Source: Pseudomonadota bacterium
GTDB taxonomy: Bacteria; Pseudomonadota; Gammaproteobacteria; Steroidobacterales; Steroidobacteraceae
Direction of reading: 5' to 3'
Assembly: GCA_021798335.1 (NCBI GenBank)
Contig: JAJZMI010000169.1
Coordinates: forward strand, 1 to 51,437
DNA length: 51,437 nt
Under the pieces are notes generated by a model. The model had not been told where the DNA came from, made no database searches, and was given only the letters and a program-made list of their open reading frames with translations. Below, in pieces: positions 19,244-33,167 of this stretch. The position numbers and the translations under genes are program-made. Every line of letters begins with the position of its first letter. The stretch's first letter is position 1.

Positions 19244-21124
19244 ATGGCGAGTCGCAATCCGTTTCGCGGGGCTCTGCTGGCGCGGCTCTCAGGCGCGCTG
19301 GTATTGGTGCTCGCGAGCGTCGTGGCTCATGCCAACATCGCGCTGACCGTCCATGGCGTCGGCGGCGAGCTGCGGGCCAATGTACTCGCGTACCTCAGCT
19401 TCGAGGGTTACAGGAACAGCGCCCATCTGAGCGCCGCGACCATCGAGCGGCTGGAGAACCGGGTCCAGAGCGAGGTGCACTCGGCTCTCGAGCCTTATGG
19501 ATACTTCAGTCCAACCGTGCACCTTCAGGTCGCCAGAATCGGACCGAACGACTGGCGGGTGATCCTCACGATCGATCGAGGCCGACCGGTCCTCGTGCGC
19601 GGCATCCATGTACGCGTGCGCGGTGCCGGCGCGGATGATCCGCTGTTCACCCGCGTCACCACGCGTCTGCCGTTTCACCTCGGGGAGCGGTTGAACGAGA
19701 CAGCCTACGAAGGGCTCAAGAGCCGGCTGCTGCAGACCGCCGCGACGTACGGTTATCTCGACGGGCGCCTGACGCGCCACGAGCTGTTGGTGAACCCGGT
19801 CAGGCATAGCGCGCGCATTGCGTTGACTTTCGACACCGGAGTTCGCTACCGCTTCGGCGCGACGGAGTTTCATCAAGATGCCCTGACAAACTCGCTGGTC
19901 CACCGTTATCTGCGGTACCGGCAAGGCCAGCCGTTCAATCTGAGCCAGGTGCTCGGCACCCAGTTCGTACTCGACGACTCGGGATACTTCTCCAATGTCG
20001 AGGTCGTGCCCGGCAAACCCGACACGGCTGATCATACGGTGCCGGTGATCGTTCGCGCCAAGCGCAGCCGGCCCCAGGTGTATTCGATCGCGGCGGGCTA
20101 CGAGACCGACACTGGCGCACAGGGAATTTTCAGCTGGCAGGATCGGCGGCTCGATGCGCAGGGTCACCGGATGAGCATCAATCTGGAGTTCGCCCAGGTC
20201 ACCAAATACAGCCTGCAGAGCAGCTACGTCATTCCCATGGGCGATCCGGCCACCGAGAACCTGGCGCTCTCGGCGCGTATCGAGCAGCGCCAACTGGCCT
20301 CGGTCGATGCCCGTACCGTGACCATCGGCCCGCGATTCACCCGCGTCTCCGGCCGTTGGCAGACGGTATTCTTCGTCGAGGCCGTGCATGCCACCGACAC
20401 GGTGGAGGGAACCGCCTGCACGGCGTTCGTCGGTCCGCACTTCCACTGTGTCTTCCCGCAGTTTCCCAATGCCATCTCGAGCATCGGCAACGCCGATCTG
20501 GTGGTGCCGGGAGTGCAGATCAGCTCGGTGCCGGTTGGCTATTTCGGCGAACCGGTGCTCGAGCACGACGTGTCGATCCAGATACGCGGATCGCGCGGCG
20601 TGCTCGGCTCGCCCGCCAGCTTCCTGCAGATCCTCGTCCGGTTCGAGCGGGCATTTGCGCTCGCGCCGCGCTGGCATCTGCTGTTGCGCGAGGAATTGGG
20701 CGCGACCGCCGCGTCCCATTTCAACGAGATGTCGCCGGTGATGCGCTTCTTTGCCGGCGGCGCCGACAGCGTGCGGGGCTTCGAGTACAACGCGCTGAGC
20801 CCGATCTACACGGTCTATGCCCAGGAGAGGAAGTCGCAGTGCCCCGGCCGGGTATGCCCGCTGCGCGTGCAGGCCGGTGGCAAGGACGTGATCAGCGGTA
20901 CCGTCGAGATCGACCGTAGCCTGCCGCACAACCTGGGCGTTGCGGCTTTCTTCGACTACGGCAACGCGTTCAACAGCTTTCACACGCCGCACCTGCTGCA
21001 GTACGGGGCCGGCGTCGGCCTGCGCGTGCGTCTGCCGGTTCTGACTCTCGGTGTCGACGTCGGCCAGCCGCTCTCGGCGCCCGGCAGCCCGCGGCTATAC
21101 ATCAACTTCCTGCCGCGGTTGTAG
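19244..21124 (+). CDS. tamA: translocation and assembly module subunit TamA
   Basis: This 626-residue Omp85-family outer-membrane protein starts with a signal peptide (ALVLVLASVVAHA-N). POTRA domains follow to about residue 265, including the FDTGVRYRFGATEF strand and GYFSNVEVVP. The C-terminal 16-strand barrel carries the lid-lock motif FFAGGADSVRGFEY near residues 501-514. TamA works with TamB in moving proteins and phospholipids to the outer membrane. The tamB gene starts 12 bases downstream, as in other proteobacteria. A weak TACAAT -10-like hexamer lies at 19198-19203 upstream. Confidence 0.93.
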   Translation: MASRNPFRGALLARLSGALVLVLASVVAHANIALTVHGVGGELRANVLAYLSFEGYRNSAHLSAATIERLENRVQSEVHSALEPYGYFSPTVHLQVARIGPNDWRVILTIDRGRPVLVRGIHVRVRGAGADDPLFTRVTTRLPFHLGERLNETAYEGLKSRLLQTAATYGYLDGRLTRHELLVNPVRHSARIALTFDTGVRYRFGATEFHQDALTNSLVHRYLRYRQGQPFNLSQVLGTQFVLDDSGYFSNVEVVPGKPDTADHTVPVIVRAKRSRPQVYSIAAGYETDTGAQGIFSWQDRRLDAQGHRMSINLEFAQVTKYSLQSSYVIPMGDPATENLALSARIEQRQLASVDARTVTIGPRFTRVSGRWQTVFFVEAVHATDTVEGTACTAFVGPHFHCVFPQFPNAISSIGNADLVVPGVQISSVPVGYFGEPVLEHDVSIQIRGSRGVLGSPASFLQILVRFERAFALAPRWHLLLREELGATAASHFNEMSPVMRFFAGGADSVRGFEYNALSPIYTVYAQERKSQCPGRVCPLRVQAGGKDVISGTVEIDRSLPHNLGVAAFFDYGNAFNSFHTPHLLQYGAGVGLRVRLPVLTLGVDVGQPLSAPGSPRLYINFLPRL

Positions 21125-21136
21125 GCGCCCGCGACC

Positions 21137-24100
21137 GTGCGCAAATTCCTGACATTGAGCGGATTGCTGACCGGGCTGGCGGCAGCGCTCGGCGCCGCCG
21201 CATTGTGGTTTCTCATCTTCACGGCAAGCGGTGCGCGATTCATCGCCGCACGCCTTTCGCGGCGCTTCGGAACGGCGCGCGTACGGATCGAGCAGGTCAG
21301 CGGCACGCTTGCCACCGGTGTGCGCGCCGGACGCGTCGTGATCGATCAACGGCACGTGTACGTGCGGTTGCAGAACGTCTATATGCGCGTGCGGCCCTCG
21401 GCGCTGTCCTGGCGTACGCTGGTCAGCCCGGACACGACGATCGCGGCTGCGTACATCCGCATCAGGCCGGTTCCGCCGTTGCCCGCGGTCCATCCGCAGT
21501 TCCTGCCGTCGTGGCTCGGTGTCCGCGTCGAGCACGCCCATATCGATCGGCTCACGGTGGTGACGGCGAGCGGCAGTCACTTGAGCGCCGAGGGCATCGA
21601 TGCCACCGCGCGGCTGAGCGCCGGCATTCTGAGCGTCACGCGGCTGACATTGCGCGATTCGGCACTGTCACTGGAGCTGTCCGGCCGGCTGTATGCCGCG
21701 CAGCCGCTGCACATCTCGCTCGCAGGCACGTATCACTGGCGCGCGCCGCGCGCGCCGCAATGGTCGGGCGGAGTTGCACTGCACGGTGACTTGGCCAACC
21801 TCGACGTGGAGGCGGGTTTGCGCGCACCGTTCCGAGCGCAGCTGCACGGTCTGCTGAGCGAGCGCAACGGCTTGTGGCACGTGCGCAGCGCCCTGACCGT
21901 GCGCGGCCTGGATCTGCGCACGTGGTATCGCAGCGGCCGGCTCGGCCGCATCAGCGCACAGCTCGCCCTGACCGGCACCCCGGAGCATTTCACGGTCGGC
22001 GGTACTCTCGATCCGGCCGGACTGCACGCCGGGGTCTTTCATGTCGAGCTTCTCGGCGCGTATGTCCGCGACACGCTCACCGCGCGCCGGCTTGCCGTGA
22101 CCCAGCTCGCCACGGGTGCGTCGGCCACGGCCGCCGGAACGGTGCGCTGGCGGCAGGGTCGCCCGCAGCTGCATCTGCGGGGCGAATGGCATGCCCTGCA
22201 ATGGCCCCTGGCCGGCACCGCGCGATTCACCAGCGCGCAGGGCCGGTTCTCCTTGGCCGGTGACCTGCCCTATGCGGTCGACGCCCGCGGGGTTGCGCAG
22301 ATCGGGCACGGACCGCAAGTCCCGGTGCGTTTGACCGCCGAGGTGCGCCGCACCGGCCTGACGGTCGATCACGCCAGCCTCCATCTGCTCGGCGGCGACG
22401 TCCGTGCGAGCGGCGTCGTGTCGTGGCTGCCGACTACGCGCTGGTCCCTGCGGGCCCGGGCTTCGGGTCTGGATCCCGGGCAGGTACGCACCTTCATGGC
22501 CGGACGGATCGGCGTGAGCCTCAGCGCCTCGGGGGAAGGGTTCGGTCCCGCAGCGTCGCTGAGTGTGCGCATCAGTCGGCTCAGCGGTCTGGTGCGCGGC
22601 CAGCCGGCCAGCGGTGGCGGCGGCATTGAGCTCAGGGGCGGGGCCTGGACGTTCCGCGACGTTCACCTCGACCTCGGTCACACTCGGCTCGCGCTCGACG
22701 GCCGGGTGAGTCAGCAGCTCGATCTGCGGTTTACGGTGGCTGGTGACTTGGCCCTGATCGAGGCCAGCGACGGCGGGCGCTTCGATGCCACCGGCGTGAT
22801 CCGCGGAGCGCGGACTGCGCCGCGGGTGCGCGCCTCGCTGTCGGGGTCCCACCTGCGCTTCCGGAATGCGACGCTCCAGTCCCTGGTTGCACACGTCGAT
22901 TTCGACCCAACCTCCCAGCGCCGCTCGAGTGTTGCCGTGCATCTTCGCGAGCTGCGCTGGCGCCACCGGCGGCTGGCAGATTTCGATTTCACGATGAGCG
23001 GTTTCGCGTCGGATCTGCACGCGAATCTCACGGCGCGCGCGCCCGGATTGAGCGTGGCGGCGCACGCCTCCGGAAGCTTCTTCGGCGGGATCTTCACCGG
23101 TCAGATCTCGACCTTCAATGTGCTCGGACCGCAAGCGCTGCGGATGCATTTGTCCCGGCCGGCCATGCTGTCGCTCTCGCGCACACAGAGCCGTCTGTCC
23201 GCGCTGTGCCTCGAGAGCCGGCTGGGTGCGCTGTGCGCGGCGTGGACCTGGAGCCCGGCGCGCTGGTCGGCCTCCGTGACGACCCATGACCTGCCGCTGG
23301 CGACCTTGACCGCCGGCAGGACGCCGACGGTGCAATACGAAGGCCGGATCGGCGCGAAGATCGAGCTGCACGGCAGCGCGGGCCTGCCGGCGCAGGGTAC
23401 GCTGCACGCGACGCTGGCGGACGCCGTGTTGTCGCGGCGGCTGCTGAGCGGTCAGGTCGAGCAGACGGTGATCGGCTCGGGGGTGCTGAGTGCCGTGGCG
23501 CTGCCTGGCGTGATTCACGCGCAGGCCTCGTTGACTTCGGGCGCCATCGGCACGGTGGATGCGGCACTCGCGCTCGAGCGGGACACCCCGACGTGGCGGG
23601 CCATGCCTCTCGAGGGCACTCTGCGCCTGCGAACCACCCGTCTCGATCTGATCTCGCTCTATATGCCGGGCGTCGATCAGGTTTCCGGTGTGCTCCTCGC
23701 GCGAGCCGCGATCGGCGGGACCCTGGCCCATCCGCGCCTCACCGGCGATGTCCGGGTCGAGGGCGGCTCGGCGAACCTGTACCGGCCGAATCTGCAGATG
23801 CACCAGCTGGCGTTGCAGGCCAAGATCGTTCAGGGCGCGGTCACGGTCGAGGGTACGGCGCGGGTCGGTCAGGGGCTGATGCATGTCCAGGGCGAGATGC
23901 GCTGGCGTGACGATCTGCCATACGGCGCGCTGCACCTGTGGGGCAGCAACCTGCAGATCGTGAATCTCCCGGAAGCACAGATCGATGCCGCGCCGGACCT
24001 GCACTTCCGCATCGCCGGGCGGCGCATCGATGCCACGGGCACGGTGTTGGTGTCGCGAGCGCGGATCGCGCCGCGCAGCTTCGCCGGCGCCGTGAGCGTT

Positions 24101-24898
24101 TCGTCCGACCAGGTGATCGTCGGGGAGGAATCGTCCAGTGCCGCACATCGCTACCAGGTTGTCAGCACCATCACGCTCGAGCTCGGCAAGGACGTGAACA
24201 TCGATACCATGGGATTGACCGGCCGGCTCGCCGGGCACATCACCGTGCAGAGCGGATTGGGCAGGGGCCGGACTGCCACCGGCGAGCTGTCGGTCGTGAA
24301 GGGGCGGTATTCCGCGTACGCGCGCAACCTGACGATCGAATCCGGCCGGCTGTTCTTCCGGGGCGGGCCGATCGATGACCCGGGCATCGAGATCCGGGCC
24401 GTGCGCCGCTACCCGGACGTGACGGCCGGGATCAACGTGAGCGGCACCCTGAAGCAGCCGCAGGTGTCCTTCTTCTCCAATCCGTCGCTGCCGCAAGCGC
24501 AGATCATGTCCCTGCTGCTCTCCGGCGGCGGCTCGCTGCAGGCGCTGCAGACCAGCACGGTCGCACGGAGCCAGCGGAATTCGGCCGCGAACGAGCTGCT
24601 GACCCAGGGCGGAGCGCTGCTGGCGCAGCGGCTCGGCTCGCGCATCGGTCTGCCCGATGTGACTCTGCAGACCGATCTGAACAACGAGACTTCGCTGGTG
24701 CTCGGAAAGTACCTCTCGCCGCGGGTGTATGTCAGCTACGGCGTCGGGCTTACCGAGCAGCTCTCGGCCATCAACCTGCGTTACACCCTCGGCAATCACT
24801 GGACGCTGCGCCTGCAGGCCGGGCAGGGCAAGACTCTCGGGATGAGCAAGAGCGGGACGATCGGCGGGCTGGATCTGGTGTTCACCGTGACCAAATGA
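21137..24898 (+). CDS. tamB: translocation and assembly module subunit TamB
   Basis: This 1253-residue protein has a single N-terminal membrane anchor (LLTGLAAALGAAALWFLIFTA) and a very long stretch of short beta strands typical of AsmA-like, TamB bridge proteins that span the periplasm. The C-terminal TamB/DUF490 domain includes ITLELGKDVNID, RGRYSAY-type and GGPIDDPGIEIRAVR strands, and ends in GLTEQLSAINLRYTLG with a terminal GGLDLVFTVTK. It pairs with TamA, whose gene ends 12 bases upstream. The start is a GTG; family length is about 1250 residues, so the gene is complete. The ARG-box promoter of the next operon begins 15 bases after its stop. Confidence 0.93.
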   Translation: MRKFLTLSGLLTGLAAALGAAALWFLIFTASGARFIAARLSRRFGTARVRIEQVSGTLATGVRAGRVVIDQRHVYVRLQNVYMRVRPSALSWRTLVSPDTTIAAAYIRIRPVPPLPAVHPQFLPSWLGVRVEHAHIDRLTVVTASGSHLSAEGIDATARLSAGILSVTRLTLRDSALSLELSGRLYAAQPLHISLAGTYHWRAPRAPQWSGGVALHGDLANLDVEAGLRAPFRAQLHGLLSERNGLWHVRSALTVRGLDLRTWYRSGRLGRISAQLALTGTPEHFTVGGTLDPAGLHAGVFHVELLGAYVRDTLTARRLAVTQLATGASATAAGTVRWRQGRPQLHLRGEWHALQWPLAGTARFTSAQGRFSLAGDLPYAVDARGVAQIGHGPQVPVRLTAEVRRTGLTVDHASLHLLGGDVRASGVVSWLPTTRWSLRARASGLDPGQVRTFMAGRIGVSLSASGEGFGPAASLSVRISRLSGLVRGQPASGGGGIELRGGAWTFRDVHLDLGHTRLALDGRVSQQLDLRFTVAGDLALIEASDGGRFDATGVIRGARTAPRVRASLSGSHLRFRNATLQSLVAHVDFDPTSQRRSSVAVHLRELRWRHRRLADFDFTMSGFASDLHANLTARAPGLSVAAHASGSFFGGIFTGQISTFNVLGPQALRMHLSRPAMLSLSRTQSRLSALCLESRLGALCAAWTWSPARWSASVTTHDLPLATLTAGRTPTVQYEGRIGAKIELHGSAGLPAQGTLHATLADAVLSRRLLSGQVEQTVIGSGVLSAVALPGVIHAQASLTSGAIGTVDAALALERDTPTWRAMPLEGTLRLRTTRLDLISLYMPGVDQVSGVLLARAAIGGTLAHPRLTGDVRVEGGSANLYRPNLQMHQLALQAKIVQGAVTVEGTARVGQGLMHVQGEMRWRDDLPYGALHLWGSNLQIVNLPEAQIDAAPDLHFRIAGRRIDATGTVLVSRARIAPRSFAGAVSVSSDQVIVGEESSSAAHRYQVVSTITLELGKDVNIDTMGLTGRLAGHITVQSGLGRGRTATGELSVVKGRYSAYARNLTIESGRLFFRGGPIDDPGIEIRAVRRYPDVTAGINVSGTLKQPQVSFFSNPSLPQAQIMSLLLSGGGSLQALQTSTVARSQRNSAANELLTQGGALLAQRLGSRIGLPDVTLQTDLNNETSLVLGKYLSPRVYVSYGVGLTEQLSAINLRYTLGNHWTLRLQAGQGKTLGMSKSGTIGGLDLVFTVTK

Positions 24899-24913: not shown

Positions 24914-24941
24914 TTGACGTCTGTGAATTAATATGCACAAT
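24914..24941 (+). promoter_or_regulatory. candidate sigma-70 promoter of the arginine operon
   Basis: TTGACG (24914-24919) is followed after 16 bases by CACAAT (24936-24941); the matches to consensus are 5 of 6 and 4 of 6. It lies just downstream of the tamB stop and 42 bases upstream of the argR ATG. The two ARG boxes cover the spacer, the -10 and the expected start site. Confidence 0.55.
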
Positions 24942-24960
24942 ACGTGCACTTTTATGCAAA
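24922..24960 (+). promoter_or_regulatory. two tandem ARG boxes (ArgR operator)
   Basis: The core TGAATTAATATGCA (24924-24937) and the core TGCACTTTTATGCA (24945-24958) both resemble the ArgR half-operator TGAAT-N4-ATTCA. Their starts are exactly 21 bp apart, so two 18-bp boxes are separated by 3 bp. This is the spacing that an ArgR hexamer recognises in well-studied operators. They overlap the -10 and start region of the promoter ahead of argR, so arginine-dependent repression and autoregulation of the whole operon is expected. Confidence 0.7.
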
Positions 24961-24982: not shown

Positions 24983-25429
24983 ATGGACGCCCAGCAGCTC
25001 GAGCGGCGCCGGACCATCCTGCGCATCCTGCGCAGCGGCGTGGTCCATCGCCAGGCGGACCTGACGCGACTGCTGCGTGAGCAGGGGTACGAGGTGACCC
25101 AGTCCTCCGTCAGCCGCGACCTGCGCGATCTCGGGGTGTTCAAGGCGAGCGGCCGCTATGTGCTGCCTCCGGAGGAACTCACGCGTGCCCAGGGCGATTT
25201 CGCGATGCTCGGTCAGTTCGTACGCGGCTTGCGGCGCGCGGGCGCTTCCCTTACCGTACTGCGCACCACCACGGGCGCGGCGCAGAGCGTTGCGGTCGCC
25301 ATCGACCGCGCCGATTGGCCGGAGGTCGCCGGTACCCTCTCCGGCGACGACACCATTTTCATAGCCACCGCCTCAGCGCGCGCGCAGGACGAGCTTGTCG
25401 CTCGGCTGCAGGCGCTTTTTCGGATTTAG
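24983..25429 (+). CDS. argR: arginine repressor ArgR
   Basis: This 148-residue protein has a winged-helix N-terminal domain with recognition helix SSVSRDLRDL (41-50). The C-terminal oligomerisation and arginine-binding domain carries TTTGAAQSVAVAID and GDDTIFIA, the usual hexamer-core motif. The ATG at 24983 (MDAQQLERRR) was chosen; an in-frame codon 13 positions upstream lies in the operator region. As first gene of the arg operon, four bases upstream of argG, it is likely autorepressed through the two upstream ARG boxes. Confidence 0.9.
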   Translation: MDAQQLERRRTILRILRSGVVHRQADLTRLLREQGYEVTQSSVSRDLRDLGVFKASGRYVLPPEELTRAQGDFAMLGQFVRGLRRAGASLTVLRTTTGAAQSVAVAIDRADWPEVAGTLSGDDTIFIATASARAQDELVARLQALFRI

Positions 25430-25432
25430 CCC

Positions 25433-26665
25433 ATGACCACAGCCTCCACCGCGGGCGAGCAGCCCATTGTTCTTGCGTATTCCGGCGGCCTTGACACCTC
25501 GTTCCTGGTGCCGTGGCTGACCGAGACCTACCGCCGGCCGGTCATCACCGTGACGGTGGATACCGGCGGGATCGACGCCGAGGCGGCGCGCACGCTCGCG
25601 GAGCGAGCCCGCGCGCTGGGGGCGATCGAACATCATCAGGTCGATGCGCGCGCCCAGTACTTCGAGCAGGTGCTGCGCTTCCTGATCATGGGCAATGTCC
25701 GGCGCGGGCAGGTGTATCCGCTGTGCGTGGGGGCCGAGCGGGTGATGCAAGCGCAGACCCTCGCCCACATGGCGCGCCAGCTCGGCACCTCCATGATCGC
25801 CCACGGCTGCACCGCGGCCGGCAACGACCAGGTGCGCTTCGAGGTCGCGCTGCGCACGCTCGCGCCGGAACTCGAGGTCCTTGCCCCGGTGCGCGACCAC
25901 GCCTTCAAGCGGCCGCAAGAGCTCGCGTTCCTGCAGGAGCGCGGTCTGCCGGTGCCACCGTTCGGCGCGGCGTACTCGATCAACCGTGGCCTGTGGGGCG
26001 TGACCATCGGCGGCCAGGAGACCCTGACCTCCTCGGGCGGCATTCCCGAACACGCCTGGGTTCTGACGCGCGAGGCATTCACCCGGCCGCGGCCGCCCGA
26101 GCATCATGTCATCGCCTTCGAGCGCGGCCGGCCGACGACCCTCGACGACCGCGCGCTCGAGCCGGTGGCGCTGATCGAGGCGCTGGAGTCGATCGCCGCG
26201 CCGTTCGGCATCGGCCGGGGCATCCACCTCGGCGATACCATCATCGGCACCAAGGGCCGGGTGGCTTTCGAGGCCCCGGCCGCCGAGGTGCTGCTCACCG
26301 CGCATCGCGAGCTCGAGAAGCTCGTCCTGACCGGCCGCCAGCAGCGCATCAAGGAGCTGCTCGCTCAACCGTATGGCGACCTGGTGCACGAGGGGCAGCT
26401 GCTCGACCCGGTCTGCCGCGACATCGAGGCGCTGCTCGAGTCCTCGCAGGCGCGCGTGACCGGCTCGGTACGGGTGGCGCTGCGCCCGGGCAATCTGTTC
26501 ATCGAGGGCGTCGAGTCGCCTTACTCGCTGATGAACGTCTCCAAGGGTGTCTACGGCGAATCGGCCGGCGAGTGGACGGCGCGCGACGCGCTCGGCTTTT
26601 CCAAGATCGTCGCGCTGAGCGGCGTGTTTCACCGGCGCGCCGGCGTGCCGGGCGAGAGTGCCTGA
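25433..26665 (+). CDS. argG: argininosuccinate synthase
   Basis: This 410-residue enzyme joins citrulline and aspartate using ATP. The PP-loop AYSGGLDTS (15-23) binds ATP. AHGCTAAGNDQVRFE and the region PFGAAYSINRGLWGV to SSGG correspond to substrate-binding loops, though the usual GKGNDQVRFE is here AAGNDQVRFE. The N-terminal domain and the ending are those of the shorter ArgG type that, from memory, is seen in Bacteroidetes arginine clusters. It starts four bases after argR. Its stop is followed one base later by the ATG of the P-loop gene, indicating translational coupling. Confidence 0.9.
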   Translation: MTTASTAGEQPIVLAYSGGLDTSFLVPWLTETYRRPVITVTVDTGGIDAEAARTLAERARALGAIEHHQVDARAQYFEQVLRFLIMGNVRRGQVYPLCVGAERVMQAQTLAHMARQLGTSMIAHGCTAAGNDQVRFEVALRTLAPELEVLAPVRDHAFKRPQELAFLQERGLPVPPFGAAYSINRGLWGVTIGGQETLTSSGGIPEHAWVLTREAFTRPRPPEHHVIAFERGRPTTLDDRALEPVALIEALESIAAPFGIGRGIHLGDTIIGTKGRVAFEAPAAEVLLTAHRELEKLVLTGRQQRIKELLAQPYGDLVHEGQLLDPVCRDIEALLESSQARVTGSVRVALRPGNLFIEGVESPYSLMNVSKGVYGESAGEWTARDALGFSKIVALSGVFHRRAGVPGESA

Positions 26666-26666
26666 G

Positions 26667-27743
26667 ATGGCCAACGGCATGCGCAGCGTCGTGGTCGACA
26701 AGATCGCCTCGGTGGCCCAAGCGTGCGGCCTCTCGCACGAGGTGCGCGTCGCGGCCGATATCCCGGCCGAGGAGGGCGTGGTGATCGTGGTCGAGGTGCT
26801 GACCAACAAGTCGACGTACAATCAACTGGAGCTCAGCAGCGGCCGCATGGCCAAGGTGCGCAAGGGCGATGTCGTGGTCGGCGCACTGGGACACCGCAAG
26901 GCCCTGTTCGGGTATTCCGGCCACATCCCGCCGGCGGTCAAGGTCGGCGACGTGATCCAGATGCTCAACATCGGCGGGGTCCTCGGGGTGTGCGATTCGA
27001 TCAACCCCGACAAGGGCCAGCCGTTCGACTGCCGGGTGCTCGGCGTCGTGCTGCGCTTTCCCTACCTCGGCGAGCGCATCGGTGTGCCGGCTCGCGTCGG
27101 CCACCGCAAGCTCGACCCGTCGGCGCGTTTGGAGACGCTCAACGTCCCGGTCGTGGCGCTCGCCGGAACGTGCATGGAGGCCGGCAAGACCGCGGCCGCC
27201 TGCGCCGTGATCAGCCGCATGCGCCATCGTGGCCTGACGGTCGATGCGTTCAAGGCCACGGGCGTCTCGCTGCGGCGCGACATTCTCGCCATGGAGGATG
27301 CTGGTGCGCGCCGCTCCGCGATCTTCACCGATTTCGGGGTCGTCACGACCACGCGCAGCAACGGTCCGGCTCTGACCCGGGCGATGCTGACCGAGCTCGC
27401 CGCCGGCAAGCCTGATGTGATCGTGTTCGAGCTCGGCGACGGAATTCTCGGCACCTACGGCGTGGATGCCATCCTGGAGTGTCCCGATATCCGCGCCGCC
27501 CTGACCGGCGTGGTGCTCTCGGCCAACGATCCGGTGGCGGCCTGGGGCGGGGTGAAGCTGCTGCGCGAGCGTTTCGAGATCGAGCCGTGCGTGGTGACCG
27601 GACCGGCCACCGACAATCAGGTTGGTGTCGATCTGATCACGGAGCAGCTGCGGGTGCCGGCGTTCAACGCCATCAGCAGCGGTGCGCAGCTGGGCGAGCA
27701 TGTCATGCAGGCCGTCGGCCTGGTGCGCCAAGGCGAGCCATGA
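26667..27743 (+). CDS. P-loop protein resembling DUF1611/DgcN, candidate N-acylglutamate synthase
   Basis: This 358-residue protein has no standard place in arginine synthesis. Residues 1-155 form an N-terminal domain of unknown fold with LTNKSTYNQLELSSGRMAKV and NIGGVLGVCDSINPDKGQPF. The C-terminal half is a P-loop domain: Walker A GTCMEAGKT (167-175), then DAFKATGVSLRRD (193-205), an acidic strand end VIVFELGDG (251-259), and VLSANDPVAAWGG. The GT-x4-GKT plus ATG arrangement resembles DUF1611 proteins, whose member DgcN is reported to N-acetylate D-glutamate. It sits between argG and argC, overlapping argC as ATGA, in an operon without argA or argJ. A role in acylating glutamate is inference; an ATP-dependent regulator or acyl-ligase is also possible. 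The ATG one base after the argG stop was chosen over a GTG three codons earlier. Confidence 0.6.
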   Translation: MANGMRSVVVDKIASVAQACGLSHEVRVAADIPAEEGVVIVVEVLTNKSTYNQLELSSGRMAKVRKGDVVVGALGHRKALFGYSGHIPPAVKVGDVIQMLNIGGVLGVCDSINPDKGQPFDCRVLGVVLRFPYLGERIGVPARVGHRKLDPSARLETLNVPVVALAGTCMEAGKTAAACAVISRMRHRGLTVDAFKATGVSLRRDILAMEDAGARRSAIFTDFGVVTTTRSNGPALTRAMLTELAAGKPDVIVFELGDGILGTYGVDAILECPDIRAALTGVVLSANDPVAAWGGVKLLRERFEIEPCVVTGPATDNQVGVDLITEQLRVPAFNAISSGAQLGEHVMQAVGLVRQGEP

Positions 27744-28801
27744 GCGAGCGCATTCCCGCCGTGGTGCTCGGCGGCACCGGCTACGTGGCCGGAGAGTTGC
27801 TGCGGCTGCTCGCCGGACATCCGCACTTCGAGGTGCGCGCGGTGATGTCGGACAGCCAGCCGGGCGAGCCGCTCGGGGTGGCCTTCCCCCACCTCGCGGC
27901 GTCCTATGGGGCGGCGTGCTTTCAGCCGCACAACGAGATCCAGTCACTCCTGACCCGCGTGCCGCACAGCGCGGTGTTCTGTGCCGCGCCGCACGGGGTC
28001 TCCGCCCAGCTCATCGATTCGCTGCTCACCGCTGCCGAGGCCGCCGGCACCCGACCGCGCGTGGTGGACATCTCCGCCGACTTCCGATTCCGGTCGGCCG
28101 ACGCCTATCAGCGGGTCTACAAACATCCGCACGGCGCGCCGCAGCGCCTCGCGCAGTTCACCTGCGCCATGCCGGAGCATCTGGCCGCAGCGAGTACGCC
28201 GCACGTGGCTCATCCGGGCTGCTTCGCCAGCGCGGTATTGCTGGCGAGCGTGCCGCTGCTCGCCCGGGGACTGACGCCGCCGCAGCTGTTCGTGTCGGGG
28301 GTGACCGGCAGCACCGGGTCGGGACGCAAGCCGGTGGCGGGCACGCATCATCCCGTGCGTCACAGCGATCTCTATGCCTACAGCGCGCTTGCGCACCGTC
28401 ACGCGCCTGAGATCGCAGCCTGTGCCCACGCTGCGGCGGGTGTGTGGGCGGATATCGCGTTCGTCCCCCATTCCGGACCGTTCGCGCGCGGCATTCACAT
28501 GACGGTGCAGGCGCCGCTGGTGCGGCCGCTCGAGACCGCCGAGGTGATCGGTGCGCTGCGCGAGTTCTATGCCGGATCGCGGTTCGTGCGCGTGCTCGAG
28601 ACGCCGCCGCGCGTGAAGGACGTCGTGGCGAGCAATTACGCGCACCTGAGCGCGGTGAGCGACGGCCGAACGGTGGCCGTGATGTGTACTCTGGACAATC
28701 TCACGAAGGGCGCCGCCGGCGGCGCGGTGCAGTGGATGAACCGGATGTTCGGCCTGGCCGAGACCGACGGTCTGACGGCACCGGCTCCCGGTTGGACCTG
28801 A
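27740..28801 (+). CDS. argC: N-acyl-gamma-glutamyl-phosphate reductase
   Basis: This 353-residue NADPH-dependent reductase makes N-acylglutamate semialdehyde. It has the Rossmann start LGGTGYVAGELLRLL, the catalytic cysteine C161 in HPGCFASA, and SGVTGSTGSGRKP and GIHMTVQAPL in the catalytic domain, with DNLTKGAAGGAVQWMN near the end. The ATG at 27740 overlaps the stop of the P-loop gene (ATGA), so the two are coupled. Whether the acyl group is acetyl or succinyl cannot be told from this enzyme. Confidence 0.93.
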   Translation: MSERIPAVVLGGTGYVAGELLRLLAGHPHFEVRAVMSDSQPGEPLGVAFPHLAASYGAACFQPHNEIQSLLTRVPHSAVFCAAPHGVSAQLIDSLLTAAEAAGTRPRVVDISADFRFRSADAYQRVYKHPHGAPQRLAQFTCAMPEHLAAASTPHVAHPGCFASAVLLASVPLLARGLTPPQLFVSGVTGSTGSGRKPVAGTHHPVRHSDLYAYSALAHRHAPEIAACAHAAAGVWADIAFVPHSGPFARGIHMTVQAPLVRPLETAEVIGALREFYAGSRFVRVLETPPRVKDVVASNYAHLSAVSDGRTVAVMCTLDNLTKGAAGGAVQWMNRMFGLAETDGLTAPAPGWT

Positions 28802-28817: not shown

Positions 28818-29993
28818 ATGAACGCAACGACACCGGTTCATTCCGCGCCGCCCGAGGCGCCCCGCGACGCTCTGGCGCCGGTCTACGCCCAATACCCGTT
28901 CGAGGTCGATCACGCCGAAGGGGTCTGGCTGATCAACGCGCGCGGCGAGCGCCTGCTTGACCTGTACGGCGGGCACGCGGTGGCCGCCCTCGGTTACGGT
29001 CACCCCGGCTGGACCGAAGCGCTGGCCGCCCAGGCGCGCGCCTGCCAGTTCCAGACCAACGCGCTGCCGATGGCGATCCGTGCGCGTGCGGCGCAACGGC
29101 TGCTGGCGTTCTCCCAACTCGATCTCGCCAGCGTATTCCTGGTCAACAGCGGCGCGGAGGCCAATGAGAACGCGCTGCGCCTGGCTCTGCGGGTGACCGC
29201 GCGGCCGCACGTGGTGGCCCTCGAGGGCGCCTTCCACGGCCGCACCGCCGCGGCGGCGGCCGTGACCTGGGGTTCGGAGGCCTGGTACGGCTTTCCCCGC
29301 AAGCCCTTCGATGTCAGCTTCATGCCGCGGCACGAGCCCGGCGCCATCGCCGAGCACGTGACCGAGCGCACGGCCGCTGTCATCGTCGAGCCGGTGCAGG
29401 GCCTGGCCGGCGCCGTCGATCTCGGGGCGCCGTATCTTTCAGCGCTGCGCGAGCGCTGTGACCGGGTCGGCGCGCTGTTGATCTTCGATGAAGTGCAATG
29501 TGGGCTCGGGCGCGTGGGCGCCCCATTCGCCGCCACCCTGTACGGGGTGACGCCCGATCTGCTGACGACGGCGAAAGCGCTCGGCAATGGCTTCCCATGC
29601 GCGGCGCTGCTGACATCGGCGCGGGTATCGGCCGCTTTGAAGGTCGGTGAGCTCGGCACGACCTACGGCGGTGGGCCGATGGCCTGTGCGGCAATGCTCG
29701 CCTGCATCGAGGCGATCGAGTCGCAGCGGCTGTTGGAGAACGTCAGGCACATGTCCGAGATGATCCGGCGCACGTGTCACGTCGGGCCGGTGAGCGCCAT
29801 CCAGGGCGAGGGGCTGTTGCTCGGGCTGCGCATGCGCCGTCCCGCCAAGCAGATCCAGGCCGAACTGCTGCGCCGCGCCATCCTCGCCGGCACGGCGAGC
29901 GACCCGCAGGTCCTGCGGCTGCTGCCGCCGTTCATTCTCCAGGCCTCGCACGTCGAGCTGCTGCGCCGGGCGCTGGCGGACATCGGCGAATGA
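28818..29993 (+). CDS. argD: N-acylornithine aminotransferase
   Basis: This 391-residue class III PLP aminotransferase has LDLYGGHAVAALGYGHP near the N-terminus, NSGAEANENALRLA, FHGRTAAAAA, VEPVQGLAGAV, the aspartate of IFDEVQCGLGR that holds the pyridine nitrogen, and the PLP lysine in TTAKALGNGFP. It converts N-acylglutamate semialdehyde to N-acylornithine with glutamate as donor. The LDLYGGHAV start resembles, from memory, ArgD of Bacteroidetes clusters. A GGCGCAAGAGAACGAC stretch precedes the ATG, and the stop overlaps the transcarbamylase start as ATGA. Confidence 0.92.
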   Translation: MNATTPVHSAPPEAPRDALAPVYAQYPFEVDHAEGVWLINARGERLLDLYGGHAVAALGYGHPGWTEALAAQARACQFQTNALPMAIRARAAQRLLAFSQLDLASVFLVNSGAEANENALRLALRVTARPHVVALEGAFHGRTAAAAAVTWGSEAWYGFPRKPFDVSFMPRHEPGAIAEHVTERTAAVIVEPVQGLAGAVDLGAPYLSALRERCDRVGALLIFDEVQCGLGRVGAPFAATLYGVTPDLLTTAKALGNGFPCAALLTSARVSAALKVGELGTTYGGGPMACAAMLACIEAIESQRLLENVRHMSEMIRRTCHVGPVSAIQGEGLLLGLRMRRPAKQIQAELLRRAILAGTASDPQVLRLLPPFILQASHVELLRRALADIGE

Positions 29994-30991
29994 AGCGCTT
30001 CCTCGACCTGGCGGAGCTGGCCCGCGAGGAGGTGCTCGCGCTGCTGGAGCTGGCCGGACGGCTGGAGCGGCAGCCGGAGCCGCGCGCCCTCGAGGGCAAG
30101 ATCCTCGGCCTGCTGTTCATGAATCCCTCGCTGCGCACGCTCGCCTCGATGCAGGCGGGCATGGCGCGGCTCGGGGGCAGCTCCTTCGTGATCACGCCGG
30201 GACAGGGCACCTGGCAGCTCGAGACACGCCTCGGAGCGGTGATGAGCGGCGCGGCCGCCGAGCACGTGCGCGAGGGCATCCCGGTGCTGGCCTCGTACTG
30301 CGATGCGCTCGGGATCCGCGCCTTTGCCGATGGCCGCGACCTGGCCGCCGATCTGGCCGAGACCAACTTCAACGCGATGGCGGCGCTGACCGGCAAGCCC
30401 CTGATAAACCTCGAGTCCGCCGTAAATCATCCCTGTCAGGCGCTTGCCGACTGGAAGACGCTGGACGATCTGGGCGTGCCGCGACACGGCCGCTTCGTGC
30501 TCTCCTGGGTCTATCATCCGCGACCGCTGCCGTTGGCGGTCCCGGCCGCGGCGCTGCACATGGCGGCGTTGCGCGGGATGGAGGTGGTGGTGCTGCGGCC
30601 GGCAGGCTTTGCGCTGCCGCAGGCGATCATGGACAAGGCTCGCCGCGCCGCCTCGATGAGCGGCGGCTCGATTCGCGAGACCGACGTGCGGCGCGAGGCC
30701 CTGGCGGGCGCGGCCGTCATTTACGCCAAGGAATGGGGTGCGACCGAATGTTACGGCGATACGGCGGCGGATGCGCGTCTGCGCGGTGCGCATGCCGACT
30801 GGTGCGTGCGCGGCGACTGGTTCGAGCATGCGGCGCCGGAGTGTCGCCTGATGCATTGCCTGCCCGTGCGGCGCAACGTCGCCGTGGCCGACGAGGTTCT
30901 CGACGGCCCGCGCAGTGCCGTGCTGCACGAGGCGTACAATCGGCTGACGGCGCAAATGGCGGTGTTGTACCGCCTGCTGAAGGGACTGTGA
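29990..30991 (+). CDS. N-acylornithine transcarbamylase (acetyl- or succinyl-ornithine)
   Basis: This 333-residue transcarbamylase has the carbamoyl-phosphate motif SLRT (47-50, here NPSLRTLAS), HPCQ (147-150) and HCLPVRRN (289-296). It lacks the ornithine-binding motifs of ordinary ArgF and instead has W75-Q-LET, YHPRPLPLAVP and YAKEWG as in acylornithine enzymes. Compared from memory with Xanthomonas N-acetylornithine transcarbamylase, the acetyl marker Glu92 corresponds to A90 and the carboxylated Lys302 to A298. Bacteroides N-succinylornithine transcarbamylase has Pro and a hydrophobic residue there. The overall character is closer to the succinyl enzyme, but A90 matches neither, so acyl specificity is open. 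Product would be N-acylcitrulline. Confidence 0.85.
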   Translation: MKRFLDLAELAREEVLALLELAGRLERQPEPRALEGKILGLLFMNPSLRTLASMQAGMARLGGSSFVITPGQGTWQLETRLGAVMSGAAAEHVREGIPVLASYCDALGIRAFADGRDLAADLAETNFNAMAALTGKPLINLESAVNHPCQALADWKTLDDLGVPRHGRFVLSWVYHPRPLPLAVPAAALHMAALRGMEVVVLRPAGFALPQAIMDKARRAASMSGGSIRETDVRREALAGAAVIYAKEWGATECYGDTAADARLRGAHADWCVRGDWFEHAAPECRLMHCLPVRRNVAVADEVLDGPRSAVLHEAYNRLTAQMAVLYRLLKGL

Positions 30992-31035: not shown

Positions 31036-31974
31036 ATGATCATGCAACCCGGCGACCAGGCACTGGCCATACGCGCGCTGAAAAGCGCGGCACCCTACAT
31101 CCGCATGTATCGCGGCAAGACGTTCGTGGTGAAGGTCGGCGGCGGGGTGTTTGTCGAGGAGGCTGCCACGCGCGCGCTCATCGAGCAGATCGCGCTGTTG
31201 CATTATTTCGGTGTCCGAGTGGTGTTTGTACACGGCGGCGGCCCGCAGGTCACGGAGCTGGCCAACGCGCTCGGCCTGGAATCGCGCATGGTGGAAGGCC
31301 GCCGCGTCACCGATCGCCGCTCGATGGACGTCACCACGATGGTGCTCAACGGCACGATCAATACCCGCATTCTGGGCGTGTGCCGCGAGCTGAACGTCGA
31401 GGCCGTCGGAGTCAGCGGGGTCGATGCGGGCCTGGTGCGTGCGCACAAACGCCCGCCGGTGCAGATGACCTCGACTGGCGAGTCGGTCGACTTTGGGTTC
31501 GTGGGCGATATCGACGTGGTCGATCCGGCGGTGCTGCGCACGCTCCTCGACAGCAATCTGATGCCGGTGGTGAGTCCCCTGTCGGCCGACGATACGGGGA
31601 CGCTGCTCAACATCAATGCCGATACGGTGGCCGCCGCCCTGGCCGCAGCGCTCGGCGCCGAGAAGCTCGTCCTGTGCACCGGCGTACCGGGGATCCTCGC
31701 CGATCGTGCCGATCCGGGCTCGCTCATTTCCTACACCGACCTTGCGGGCCTGCGCGAGCTGTGCCAGCAGGGGTGCATCGCCGAGGGCATGTTGCCGAAG
31801 ACCAAGGCCATCGAAGCGGCCATCCGCGGCGGGGTGCGCCGCGTGCACGTGGTGTCGTACCAGGCGCCCGAGGGCATTCTCGGCGAGGTATTCACCAACG
31901 AGGGGACCGGCACGCTGATCGTCGCGGACGTCAATGCGCTGACGCCGGCCGAGCAGCACGGCGCCGGGGGTTGA
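31036..31974 (+). CDS. argB: N-acylglutamate kinase lacking an acetyltransferase domain
   Basis: This 312-residue amino-acid kinase has VVKVGGGVF (phosphate-binding Lys), VHGGGPQVTELANALGL, GRRVTDRRSMDV, INADTVAAALAAALGAEK and the catalytic lysine in GMLPKTKAIEAAIRGG, so kinase activity is expected. The N-terminal extension (IRALKSAAPYIRMYRGKTF) and C-terminal VRRVHVVSYQ strand recall the kinase domain of ArgA/NAGS-K proteins. Unlike the bifunctional Xanthomonas protein of about 450 residues, it ends directly after the kinase domain, so no GNAT acetyltransferase is present. The ATG at 31036 is chosen, with a Met two codons on as alternative; 44 bases separate it from the transcarbamylase. Confidence 0.9.
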   Translation: MIMQPGDQALAIRALKSAAPYIRMYRGKTFVVKVGGGVFVEEAATRALIEQIALLHYFGVRVVFVHGGGPQVTELANALGLESRMVEGRRVTDRRSMDVTTMVLNGTINTRILGVCRELNVEAVGVSGVDAGLVRAHKRPPVQMTSTGESVDFGFVGDIDVVDPAVLRTLLDSNLMPVVSPLSADDTGTLLNINADTVAAALAAALGAEKLVLCTGVPGILADRADPGSLISYTDLAGLRELCQQGCIAEGMLPKTKAIEAAIRGGVRRVHVVSYQAPEGILGEVFTNEGTGTLIVADVNALTPAEQHGAGG

Positions 31975-31976
31975 GC

Positions 31977-33167
31977 GTGAGCCGGCTGTGGGACAAAGGC
32001 GCGCCGCTCGATGAGCGGGTGCTGCGCTTCACCGCCGGGGAGGACTTCAGCCTCGATGAGCGGCTCATCGCCTATGACGTCCGTGCCTCGATCGCGCATG
32101 CCGAGATGCTGCACGAGCAGGGACTGCTTGTGCGGACGGACCTCGAGGCCATTCGCGGCGGTCTGACTGCGCTCGGGCAAGCCCATGCCCAAGGGCAGTG
32201 GCACGTTGAGCTGGCCGACGAGGATGGGCACACCGCCCTGGAGCGCCGGTTGACCGAACGAATCGGTCCTGCGGGAGGTCGGGTTCATCTTGGGCGCTCG
32301 CGCAACGATCAGGTGCTCGCTGCCCTGCGGCTCTATCTGCGCGATGCGCTCGAGGACCTGAGCGCCGGCGCGGTAGCGGTCGCGCAGGCCCTGGAGCGGC
32401 TCGGCGCGCGCGAGCAGACCACGGCGCTGCCGGGCTACACGCACATGCAGCAGGCGATGCCGAGCTCCGTGCCGTTGTGGGCGGGTGGCTTCGCCGCCGA
32501 GATCCGCGACGATGCCGAAGCTCTGCGCCACGTCCATCGTCGCCTGGGCCGCAATCCGCTCGGATCGGCGGCCGGCTACGGCACGCCGGGTCTGCCGCTT
32601 GACCGCGAGGCGACGCGCGCGAAACTCGGCTTCGCGTCCGTGCAGGAACCGGTGACTGCCGTGCAGCTCTCCCGCGGCAAGGCTGAGGCGGAGTTGCTCT
32701 TCCACGTCACCATCCTGCTGCAGGACCTCGGACGGCTGGCCGCCGACGTGCTGCTCTTCTGTACGCAGGAATTCGGCTTCGTGCGGTTGCCGGAGGCGTT
32801 CACCACCGGCTCCTCGATCATGCCGCAGAAGCGCAATCCGGACCTCTTCGAGCTGATCCGCGGCCGCTCGGCCACCGCCCAGGCGTGCCTGCTGGAGGTC
32901 CTGGCCATCTGTGCCAAGCTGCCGTCGGGATATCAGCGCGATCTGCAGCTGTTGAAGTTTCCGCTGTTTCGCGCCATCGATCTGGCGTTGCAGACGCTCG
33001 GCATCCTGCCCGCCGCGCTCGATGCGCTCTCGTTCCGCACCGAGCGTATCCGCTTGGATCCGGCCATCCACGCTGCCGAGGAAGCCAACCGCCTGGTTGT
33101 GAGCGAAGGCATCCCCTTTCGCGAGGCTTACCGGCGCGTGGCGGCGAAGCTGAAGGGATCGGGATAG
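31977..33167 (+). CDS. argH: argininosuccinate lyase, C-terminally short
   Basis: This 396-residue fumarase/aspartase-family enzyme splits argininosuccinate into arginine and fumarate. It has HLGRSRNDQV, GYTHMQQAMPSS with the catalytic Thr-His, and the signature TGSSIMPQKRNPD with the catalytic serine. Family members are usually 440-470 residues. This one stops after EEANRLVVSEGIPFREAYRRVA, so the last 45-60 residues of the C-terminal helical domain are missing. The sequence between motifs (NPLGSAAGYG, LPSGYQRDLQ) resembles Bacteroidetes ArgH, from memory. The start is GTG, two bases after the argB stop. It is the last gene of the operon. Confidence 0.88.
   Translation: MSRLWDKGAPLDERVLRFTAGEDFSLDERLIAYDVRASIAHAEMLHEQGLLVRTDLEAIRGGLTALGQAHAQGQWHVELADEDGHTALERRLTERIGPAGGRVHLGRSRNDQVLAALRLYLRDALEDLSAGAVAVAQALERLGAREQTTALPGYTHMQQAMPSSVPLWAGGFAAEIRDDAEALRHVHRRLGRNPLGSAAGYGTPGLPLDREATRAKLGFASVQEPVTAVQLSRGKAEAELLFHVTILLQDLGRLAADVLLFCTQEFGFVRLPEAFTTGSSIMPQKRNPDLFELIRGRSATAQACLLEVLAICAKLPSGYQRDLQLLKFPLFRAIDLALQTLGILPAALDALSFRTERIRLDPAIHAAEEANRLVVSEGIPFREAYRRVAAKLKGSG

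Follow-up and report, generated by a model that had tools for sequence, protein, structure and literature searches.

A P-loop protein encoded in the arginine operon of Steroidobacterales as a candidate N-acylglutamate synthase

We propose that arginine synthesis begins with a P-loop protein of an unnamed family, here called X, whose product is an N-acyl-L-glutamate, most likely N-succinyl-L-glutamate, a reading to which we give a probability of about two in three. X is encoded within an arginine operon on a contig of 51,437 nucleotides from a Steroidobacteraceae bacterium (the whole stretch analyzed, hereafter the window). Three results support X as the missing N-acylglutamate synthase: the mutual exclusion of X and the fused synthase–kinase among the genomes of the order, its linkage to arg genes, and the outcome of the searches for ArgA, ArgJ, and GNAT proteins. 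The residues of ArgF', the M20 proteins of two genomes, the ARG-box-like repeats ahead of argR, and the best fold match also count in favor of the proposal. The role of X at the first step is supported, succinyl as the acyl group is plausible, and the use of ATP rather than succinyl-CoA in its reaction would be speculative.

Annotations often lack the first enzyme of arginine synthesis; in one survey, 228 gut genomes are listed without ArgA (PMC9026213). If our proposal is true, X would fill this gap in most genomes of the order and in some genomes of three further families, and genomes encoding it would no longer be scored as arginine auxotrophs. The succinyl route of Bacteroidetes would then also reach Gammaproteobacteria, and a P-loop family with inconsistent names in plasmid records would gain its first function.

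The arginine operon and the gene for X

Pfam and NCBIfam searches gave the operon order argR-argG-X-argC-argD-argF'-argB-argH (Table 1), the same that a first-pass annotation had read from the letters alone. They also bore out its statement that argA, argJ, and a GNAT gene are all absent among the eight operon genes. The junctions had been described as overlapping or one base long; this holds for argG and X (+1 nt) and for X–argC and argD–argF' (overlaps of 4 nt), with argB–argH at +2 and argR–argG at +3, but not for argC–argD (+16) and argF'–argB (+44 nt). As had been noted, ArgB stops after its kinase domain, where the NAGS profile TIGR01890 ends at position 280 of 429. The ArgB proteins of 78 X loci from the order end within −4 to +5 residues of the window's.

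Table 1. Features of the arginine operon and of X in the window
Feature	Coordinates	Strand	Basis or remark
Promoter element TTGACG and ARG-box-like repeats, upstream of argR	24914..24958	+	by eye and 6-mer counts
ARG-box-like repeat TGAATTAATATGCA	24924-24937	+	upstream of argR, by eye
ARG-box-like repeat TGCACTTTTATGCA	24945-24958	+	upstream of argR, by eye
argR	24983..25429	+	Pfam Arg_repressor, Arg_repressor_C
argG	25433..26665	+	TIGR00032 above cut-off
X	26667..27743	+	ORF; P-loop protein, unnamed family; candidate N-acylglutamate (probably N-succinylglutamate) synthase
Walker A GTCMEAGKT, residues 167-175 of X	27165..27191	+	sequence and conservation
K196-A-T-G ... L-R-R-D205, candidate catalytic lysine and Mg ligand of X	27252..27281	+	conservation
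E255-L-G-D-G of X, candidate Mg ligand motif, likened to BioD VEGAGG	27429..27443	+	conservation
argC	27740..28801	+	TIGR01850 above cut-off
argD	28818..29993	+	TIGR00707 best match, 311 bits, under its cut-off of 410
argF', knotted-type transcarbamylase with A90 and P181 (succinylornithine type) and A298	29990..30991	+	NF003384 above cut-off; diagnostic positions
argB, kinase domain alone	31036..31974	+	TIGR00761 above cut-off; no GNAT extension
argH	31977..33167	+	TIGR00838 above cut-off

The repeats upstream of argR are called ARG-box-like against what we take to be the ARG-box consensus. Because GTG 24944, the start of the longest ORF, falls inside them, argR probably starts at ATG 24983. 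Among 117 upstream regions, the 6-mers TTATGC and CTTGAC occurred in 91 and 76, respectively, and TGCA-N5-9-TGCA was found in 46 versus 4 after one plain shuffle of each region. Further upstream, two ORFs (window 19244-24898) resemble, by eye, outer-membrane proteins of the TamA and TamB types.

The ORF of X runs from ATG 26667 to a stop codon at 27741-27743 and encodes 358 amino acids. The true start may be Met5 (ATG 26679), since most X orthologs from other genera start at the equivalent residue. The protein consists of a beta-rich N-terminal part (about residues 30–130) and a P-loop domain (about 160–350) that is probably BioD-like; at E 0.001, no Pfam family matched it. The first-pass annotation had placed the Walker A motif correctly, and the ATG motif that it reported at 198-200 is present but lies one residue earlier, at 197-199, directly preceded by K196, which is unchanged throughout both alignments. 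Residues that all 27 X proteins share and that at least 90% of 22 relatives retain include G167, M170, G173, K174, T175, K196, T198, G199, D205, D211, D222, and E255. Others, among them K48, Y51, N52, Y83, N101, F120, Y264, D316, N317, and N334, are invariant in X alone and may bind the substrate.

The conservation of the locus was followed in the best 80 of 314 relatives confirmed in named genomes. In this set argG was directly upstream of X in 78 loci and argC directly downstream in 78, and the remaining two loci had no further arg gene. A script found the gene order of the window, as far as each locus reaches, in 72 of the 80; four more keep it too (L021, L023, L025, and L082), argB having been removed there by an overlap filter. 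Three X operons lack argD between argC and argF' (L072, L073, and L086), and one locus (L100) has X and argC, with argG, argD, and argF' not in place. Widening to additional families and genera of Steroidobacterales gave 18 more X loci, all with this gene order. Outside the order, X occurs in four genomes of three families, at 42–48% identity; argG, X, and argC are together in all four loci, and argD-argF'-argB-argH precedes argG in all three that reach further, the fourth (L180) being a short contig. X is a real, conserved member of the operon, and its adjacency to argG and argC is far from chance.

No X relatives were confirmed on viral contigs. One contig titled "MAG: Klebsiella pneumoniae" (L074) carries X at 78% identity and is probably a mislabelled MAG.

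X and the known first-step enzymes

We searched 218 genomes of the order; completeness was 90% or more in all but the genome of the window. X matched in 198, of which 193 were strong matches (E < 1e-100) and five were weak relatives or fragments (G039, G065, G132, G165, and G190). The fused N-acetylglutamate synthase–kinase was above cut-off in 12 genomes, and not one of the 218 had both this fusion and a strong X. The exclusion has a Fisher p of 3e-13 when kinship is ignored, and the genomes, being related members of one order, are not independent. In one genome without X (G054), the fused gene lies in two pieces on two contigs.

Neither strong X nor the fusion was present in 12 of the 218 genomes, nine of them also without a match to NF003387, the profile for the fused type, with which plain ArgB is detected as well in other genomes. 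Three genomes with strong X (G164, G200, and G232) likewise have no NF003387 match. The contigs of G136, G173, and G190 break off at argC or shortly inside it, on the side on which X would lie, and X is therefore not visible there. Seven genomes that are at least 91% complete lack both strong X and an NF003387 match (G132, G165, and G192 of genus g56, and G045, G058, G048, and G063); these are possible arginine auxotrophs or users of another route.

Family f7 includes genomes of either type, belonging to different genera. As far as the 11 fetched fused loci reach, their order is argF'-argG-argB/GNAT-argC-argH; an M20 match adjoins argB in six of the 11, and their arg proteins are 27–45% identical to those of the window. 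The different order and this low identity indicate that the whole operon differs and not one gene.

As a second set, 323 genomes were sampled from the class; ArgA (TIGR01890) was above cut-off in 222 of them. X orthologs were found in nine of the 323, five of them from the order, the window's own included. None of the nine had ArgA above cut-off, and it was under cut-off in all four X genomes outside the order, whereas all 17 genomes having only weak X relatives (25–31% identity in the loci measured) had ArgA at E < 1e-120. The exclusion is therefore a property of X orthologs rather than of the family at large. A point against the proposal is that a genome of the same family as two X genomes (G812, 94% complete) had no X match and a kinase-strength ArgB match.

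A search of 44 genomes, 30 of which carry strong X, found no ArgJ (PF01960); controls were positive in 10 of 14. A complete ArgA or ArgJ elsewhere in the genome, which the first-pass annotation had named as the result that would overturn its proposal, was thus looked for by profile and not found, and the survey of genomes with X revealed no fused NAGS, ArgA, or ArgJ by the same means. PF00583 matches (E up to 1) ranged from 1 to 24 per genome in 14 X genomes and exceeded one in 13, so that a GNAT synthase elsewhere is excluded, for two GNAT families, in G041 alone. The single PF00583 match of this genome (1.6 Mb, 98% complete) was RimI, above cut-off, and PF13302 had no match there; X is therefore the sole first-step candidate in G041 among the families searched. 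In the window's own genome, a 183-aa GNAT-like protein matched TIGR01890 at E 2.9e-6, which counts against the proposal. That X supplies the first N-acylating step, as had been suggested from the sequence, is supported as probable by the exclusion together with the absence of ArgA and ArgJ from the X genomes searched.

The acyl group and the proposed pathway

Three positions separate acetylornithine from succinylornithine transcarbamylases: E92, N185, and K302 in the former versus A, S, P, V, or Q, then P, then V, I, or E in the latter (PMC4581275). We fixed these columns by alignment to the solved N-acetylornithine enzyme and scored loci with at least 70% ArgF' coverage. All 85 X loci of the order had A at 92 and P at 185, the succinylornithine type; the third position was A in 69, V in 15, and a gap in one, A not being among the listed V, I, and E. 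In the three X loci outside the order, the residues were P (two) or V (one), P (three), and E (three), of the succinylornithine type at all three positions. The fused loci (n = 10) had E in ten, N in ten, and K in nine or Q in one; the eleventh had no ArgF' on its contig. Hence X goes with a succinyl-type ArgF' and the GNAT fusion with an acetyl-type one, and the window's ArgF' is acetyl-type at none of the three positions.

The position of the succinyl-anchoring arginine was R in 74 of the 85 loci, otherwise K, N, S, L, or M; it was K in all three X loci outside the order and R in one fused locus. Since the third position and the anchoring residue deviate, another acyl group is possible. The first-pass annotation missed the succinyl group to which the transcarbamylase residues point, and from these residues we take the acyl group of the pathway to be probably succinyl rather than acetyl.

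There is no deacylase within the X operon. M20 proteins were typed in three genomes (G041, G195, and G064), and DapE was present in all of them; it was the only one in G195, and G041 had a second, of about 480 aa. Besides DapE, no conserved deacylase of the ArgE' type was seen in the three. This pattern would suit a succinyl route with DapE as the desuccinylase.

In the proposed pathway, X would join the acyl group to L-glutamate. It would activate succinate with Mg-ATP, and the amine of glutamate would attack the activated group, much as BioD activates a carbamate; succinyl-CoA would be the alternative donor. The kinase-only ArgB, ArgC, and ArgD would convert the product to N-succinylornithine, which the SOTCase-type ArgF' would carbamoylate. 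A DapE-like desuccinylase encoded elsewhere would then free citrulline, and ArgG and ArgH would finish the synthesis.

Fold of X, alternative readings, and wider relatives

X had been described as DUF1611-like, a link that our searches did not support. PF07755 gave 18.5 bits against a cut-off of 25 (E 0.0014, residues 154–199), while a DgcN-type control scored 270.5 and one X relative (L126) scored 25.5, just above cut-off. DUF1611_N (PF17396) had no match in X up to E 10 and was found in a control (L141). hhalign gave X and DUF1611 a probability of 1.7% over 74 columns, with a shallow DUF1611 alignment of six sequences, and the relatives of X compared with DgcN-type DUF1611 proteins reached 2.1%. 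Membership of X in DUF1611/DgcN was rejected on the Pfam score, the hhalign value, and the lack of DUF1611_N.

Nor did other families claim X: no GNAT family was among its Pfam matches up to E 10, TIGR00347 (bioD) was not among its NCBIfam matches up to 0.1, and neither a single-sequence nor a profile search revealed relatives in the PDB. An AlphaFold2 model, built on a shallow alignment (79 sequences, 75–100% identical), had a pLDDT of 75.1 and a pTM of 0.66; confidence was high over most of the P-loop domain and low in parts of the beta-rich N-terminal region. Foldseek against the PDB placed dethiobiotin synthetase (1dts) first, at E 9.7e-6, with a TM-score of 0.37 on the query and 0.56 on the target and 16% identity, followed by FtsY and HypB. 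DgcN (7xrj), the fold comparison proposed in the first-pass annotation, was not among the listed best 50 of 113 matches (E up to 0.001). By profile, X matched three BioD-like proteins from these genomes, one of them under the bioD cut-off, at 49% over 37 columns; the relatives of X matched the BioD-like alignment at 86% over 106 columns, and X matched its relatives at 100%. In the model, the P-loop domain thus appears BioD-like in fold.

X shares with BioD, an ATP-dependent carboxylase, the GTxxxxGKT motif followed by K, D, and E motifs; it differs in its extra beta-rich N-terminal part, the absence of a bioD family score, and its arg-operon context. T175, K196, D205, and E255 would correspond, by motif and by the numbering that we assume for BioD, to its Mg-ATP residues, and two BioD proteins read VEGAGG or AEGAGG where X has E255-L-G-D-G. 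Our tentative suggestion, which we think has well under an even chance of being right, is that arginine synthesis in Steroidobacterales-like Gammaproteobacteria begins with X as an ATP-driven succinate:L-glutamate ligase of the BioD fold, not dependent on CoA, in a wider, unnamed P-loop superfamily that acylates amines and of which some members are paired with M20 deacylases.

A rival model, in line with the DgcN comparison of the first-pass annotation, is that X is a DgcN-like acetyl-CoA:L-glutamate N-acetyltransferase whose P-loop binds CoA, in a pathway of acetyl intermediates. DgcN reportedly N-acetylates D-glutamate, and DUF1611/DgcN proteins (7xrj, 2obn, and 2g0t) resemble X in having a P-loop (GT...GK) followed by ATG and in the glutamate N-acylation proposed for X. 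Two distant plasmid relatives are labelled "DUF1611 domain-containing" by NCBI, and the genomic evidence for an acylating role would serve this reading equally. The profile and fold comparisons above speak against it, however, as do the ArgF' of the window and the Walker A motif, which in the DgcN-type proteins seen reads GTDCSxGKM, without the final S/T, whereas X retains the full GKT; we consider it unlikely. Still less probable is that X acts on the pathway as a regulator or as a maturation NTPase of the HypB or MeaB kind, the first step being left to an acyltransferase that has escaped recognition elsewhere in the genome. HypB and FtsY are indeed among the best fold matches, and 13 of the 14 X genomes examined have more than one PF00583 match. 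Against this stand the RimI-only result in G041, the replacement of X and the fused synthase by each other genome by genome, and the M20 hydrolases that adjoin some relatives of X (six type 1 loci and a Priestia plasmid, described below) and not others, an adjacency expected for enzymes handling acylated amines.

The least probable of these readings, and a very improbable one in our view, is that X is a transacylase moving the acyl group from N-acylcitrulline to glutamate, in the style of ArgJ (which acts from acetylornithine), and fills both the first and the deacylation step. X operons without a known synthase or deacylase would fit it, given the M20 match beside argB in six of the 11 fused loci. 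A P-loop with conserved Mg-ATP-type residues would be unneeded for transacylation, though, and DapE is present as a possible deacylase.

Our preferred reading, X as an N-acylglutamate synthase, would add to a step at which several enzymes are known. The GNAT-related synthases are ArgA, NAGS-K, S-, O-, and H-NAGS, and ArgA2; other first-step types are ArgJ, the Corynebacterium type, the LysW/ArgX route, and a proposed ArgA3 related to N-acetylcysteine deacetylase. A BioD-like P-loop synthase is not among the types described in the excerpts of these reports (PMC4490483, PMC9026213, and PMC7311316). We recognised no literature on a P-loop protein in arginine synthesis, subscription journals and preprints lying outside the scope of the search. 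The Xanthomonas-type bifunctional NAGS-kinase (NF003387) takes on this step in sister genomes within the order, also with a knotted-type transcarbamylase, but its GNAT is fused to ArgB, its ArgF' is acetyl-type, and its operon is different. ArgA2 (BT3761) of Bacteroidetes is a proposed N-succinylglutamate synthase from arg operons with SOTCase (PMC9026213 and PMC7311316); it is described as a GNAT protein (PMC9026213) and is set apart by that description from the P-loop protein X. The RimK-like ligase ArgX/LysX resembles X as a non-GNAT means of protecting the glutamate amine in arginine synthesis and differs in working with the carrier LysW (PMC4490483).

More distant relatives of X have other neighbors. 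In six loci (type 1; L121–L124, L126, and L183; 26–33% identity), the P-loop protein forms a cassette with a flavin-reductase-like protein and an M20 peptidase; the latter was called by Pfam, and the NCBIfam matches of the one tested were all under cut-off. A relative on a Priestia megaterium plasmid (L217, 27.8% identity) lies in a cluster with an ornithine carbamoyltransferase, two ATP-grasp proteins, TPP enzymes, an M20 peptidase, an LLM oxidoreductase, and an isocitrate lyase/PEP mutase family protein, which looks like a phosphonate natural-product cluster. The M20-adjoining and Priestia contexts hint that some members of the family work on acylated amines and are no proof on X itself.

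Relatives of type 2 adjoin an ABC transporter of about 510–570 aa (Pfam) in three loci (L125, L187, and L194), with a Porin_O_P protein also present in L187 and L194; on plasmids, type 2 was recognized by annotation in L216, L218, and L219. NCBI plasmid records name the relatives of X variously as DUF1611, dethiobiotin synthase, or hypothetical protein. In five further loci (L184–L186, L188, and L189), a neighboring ORF is similar in size to the type 2 ABC transporter.
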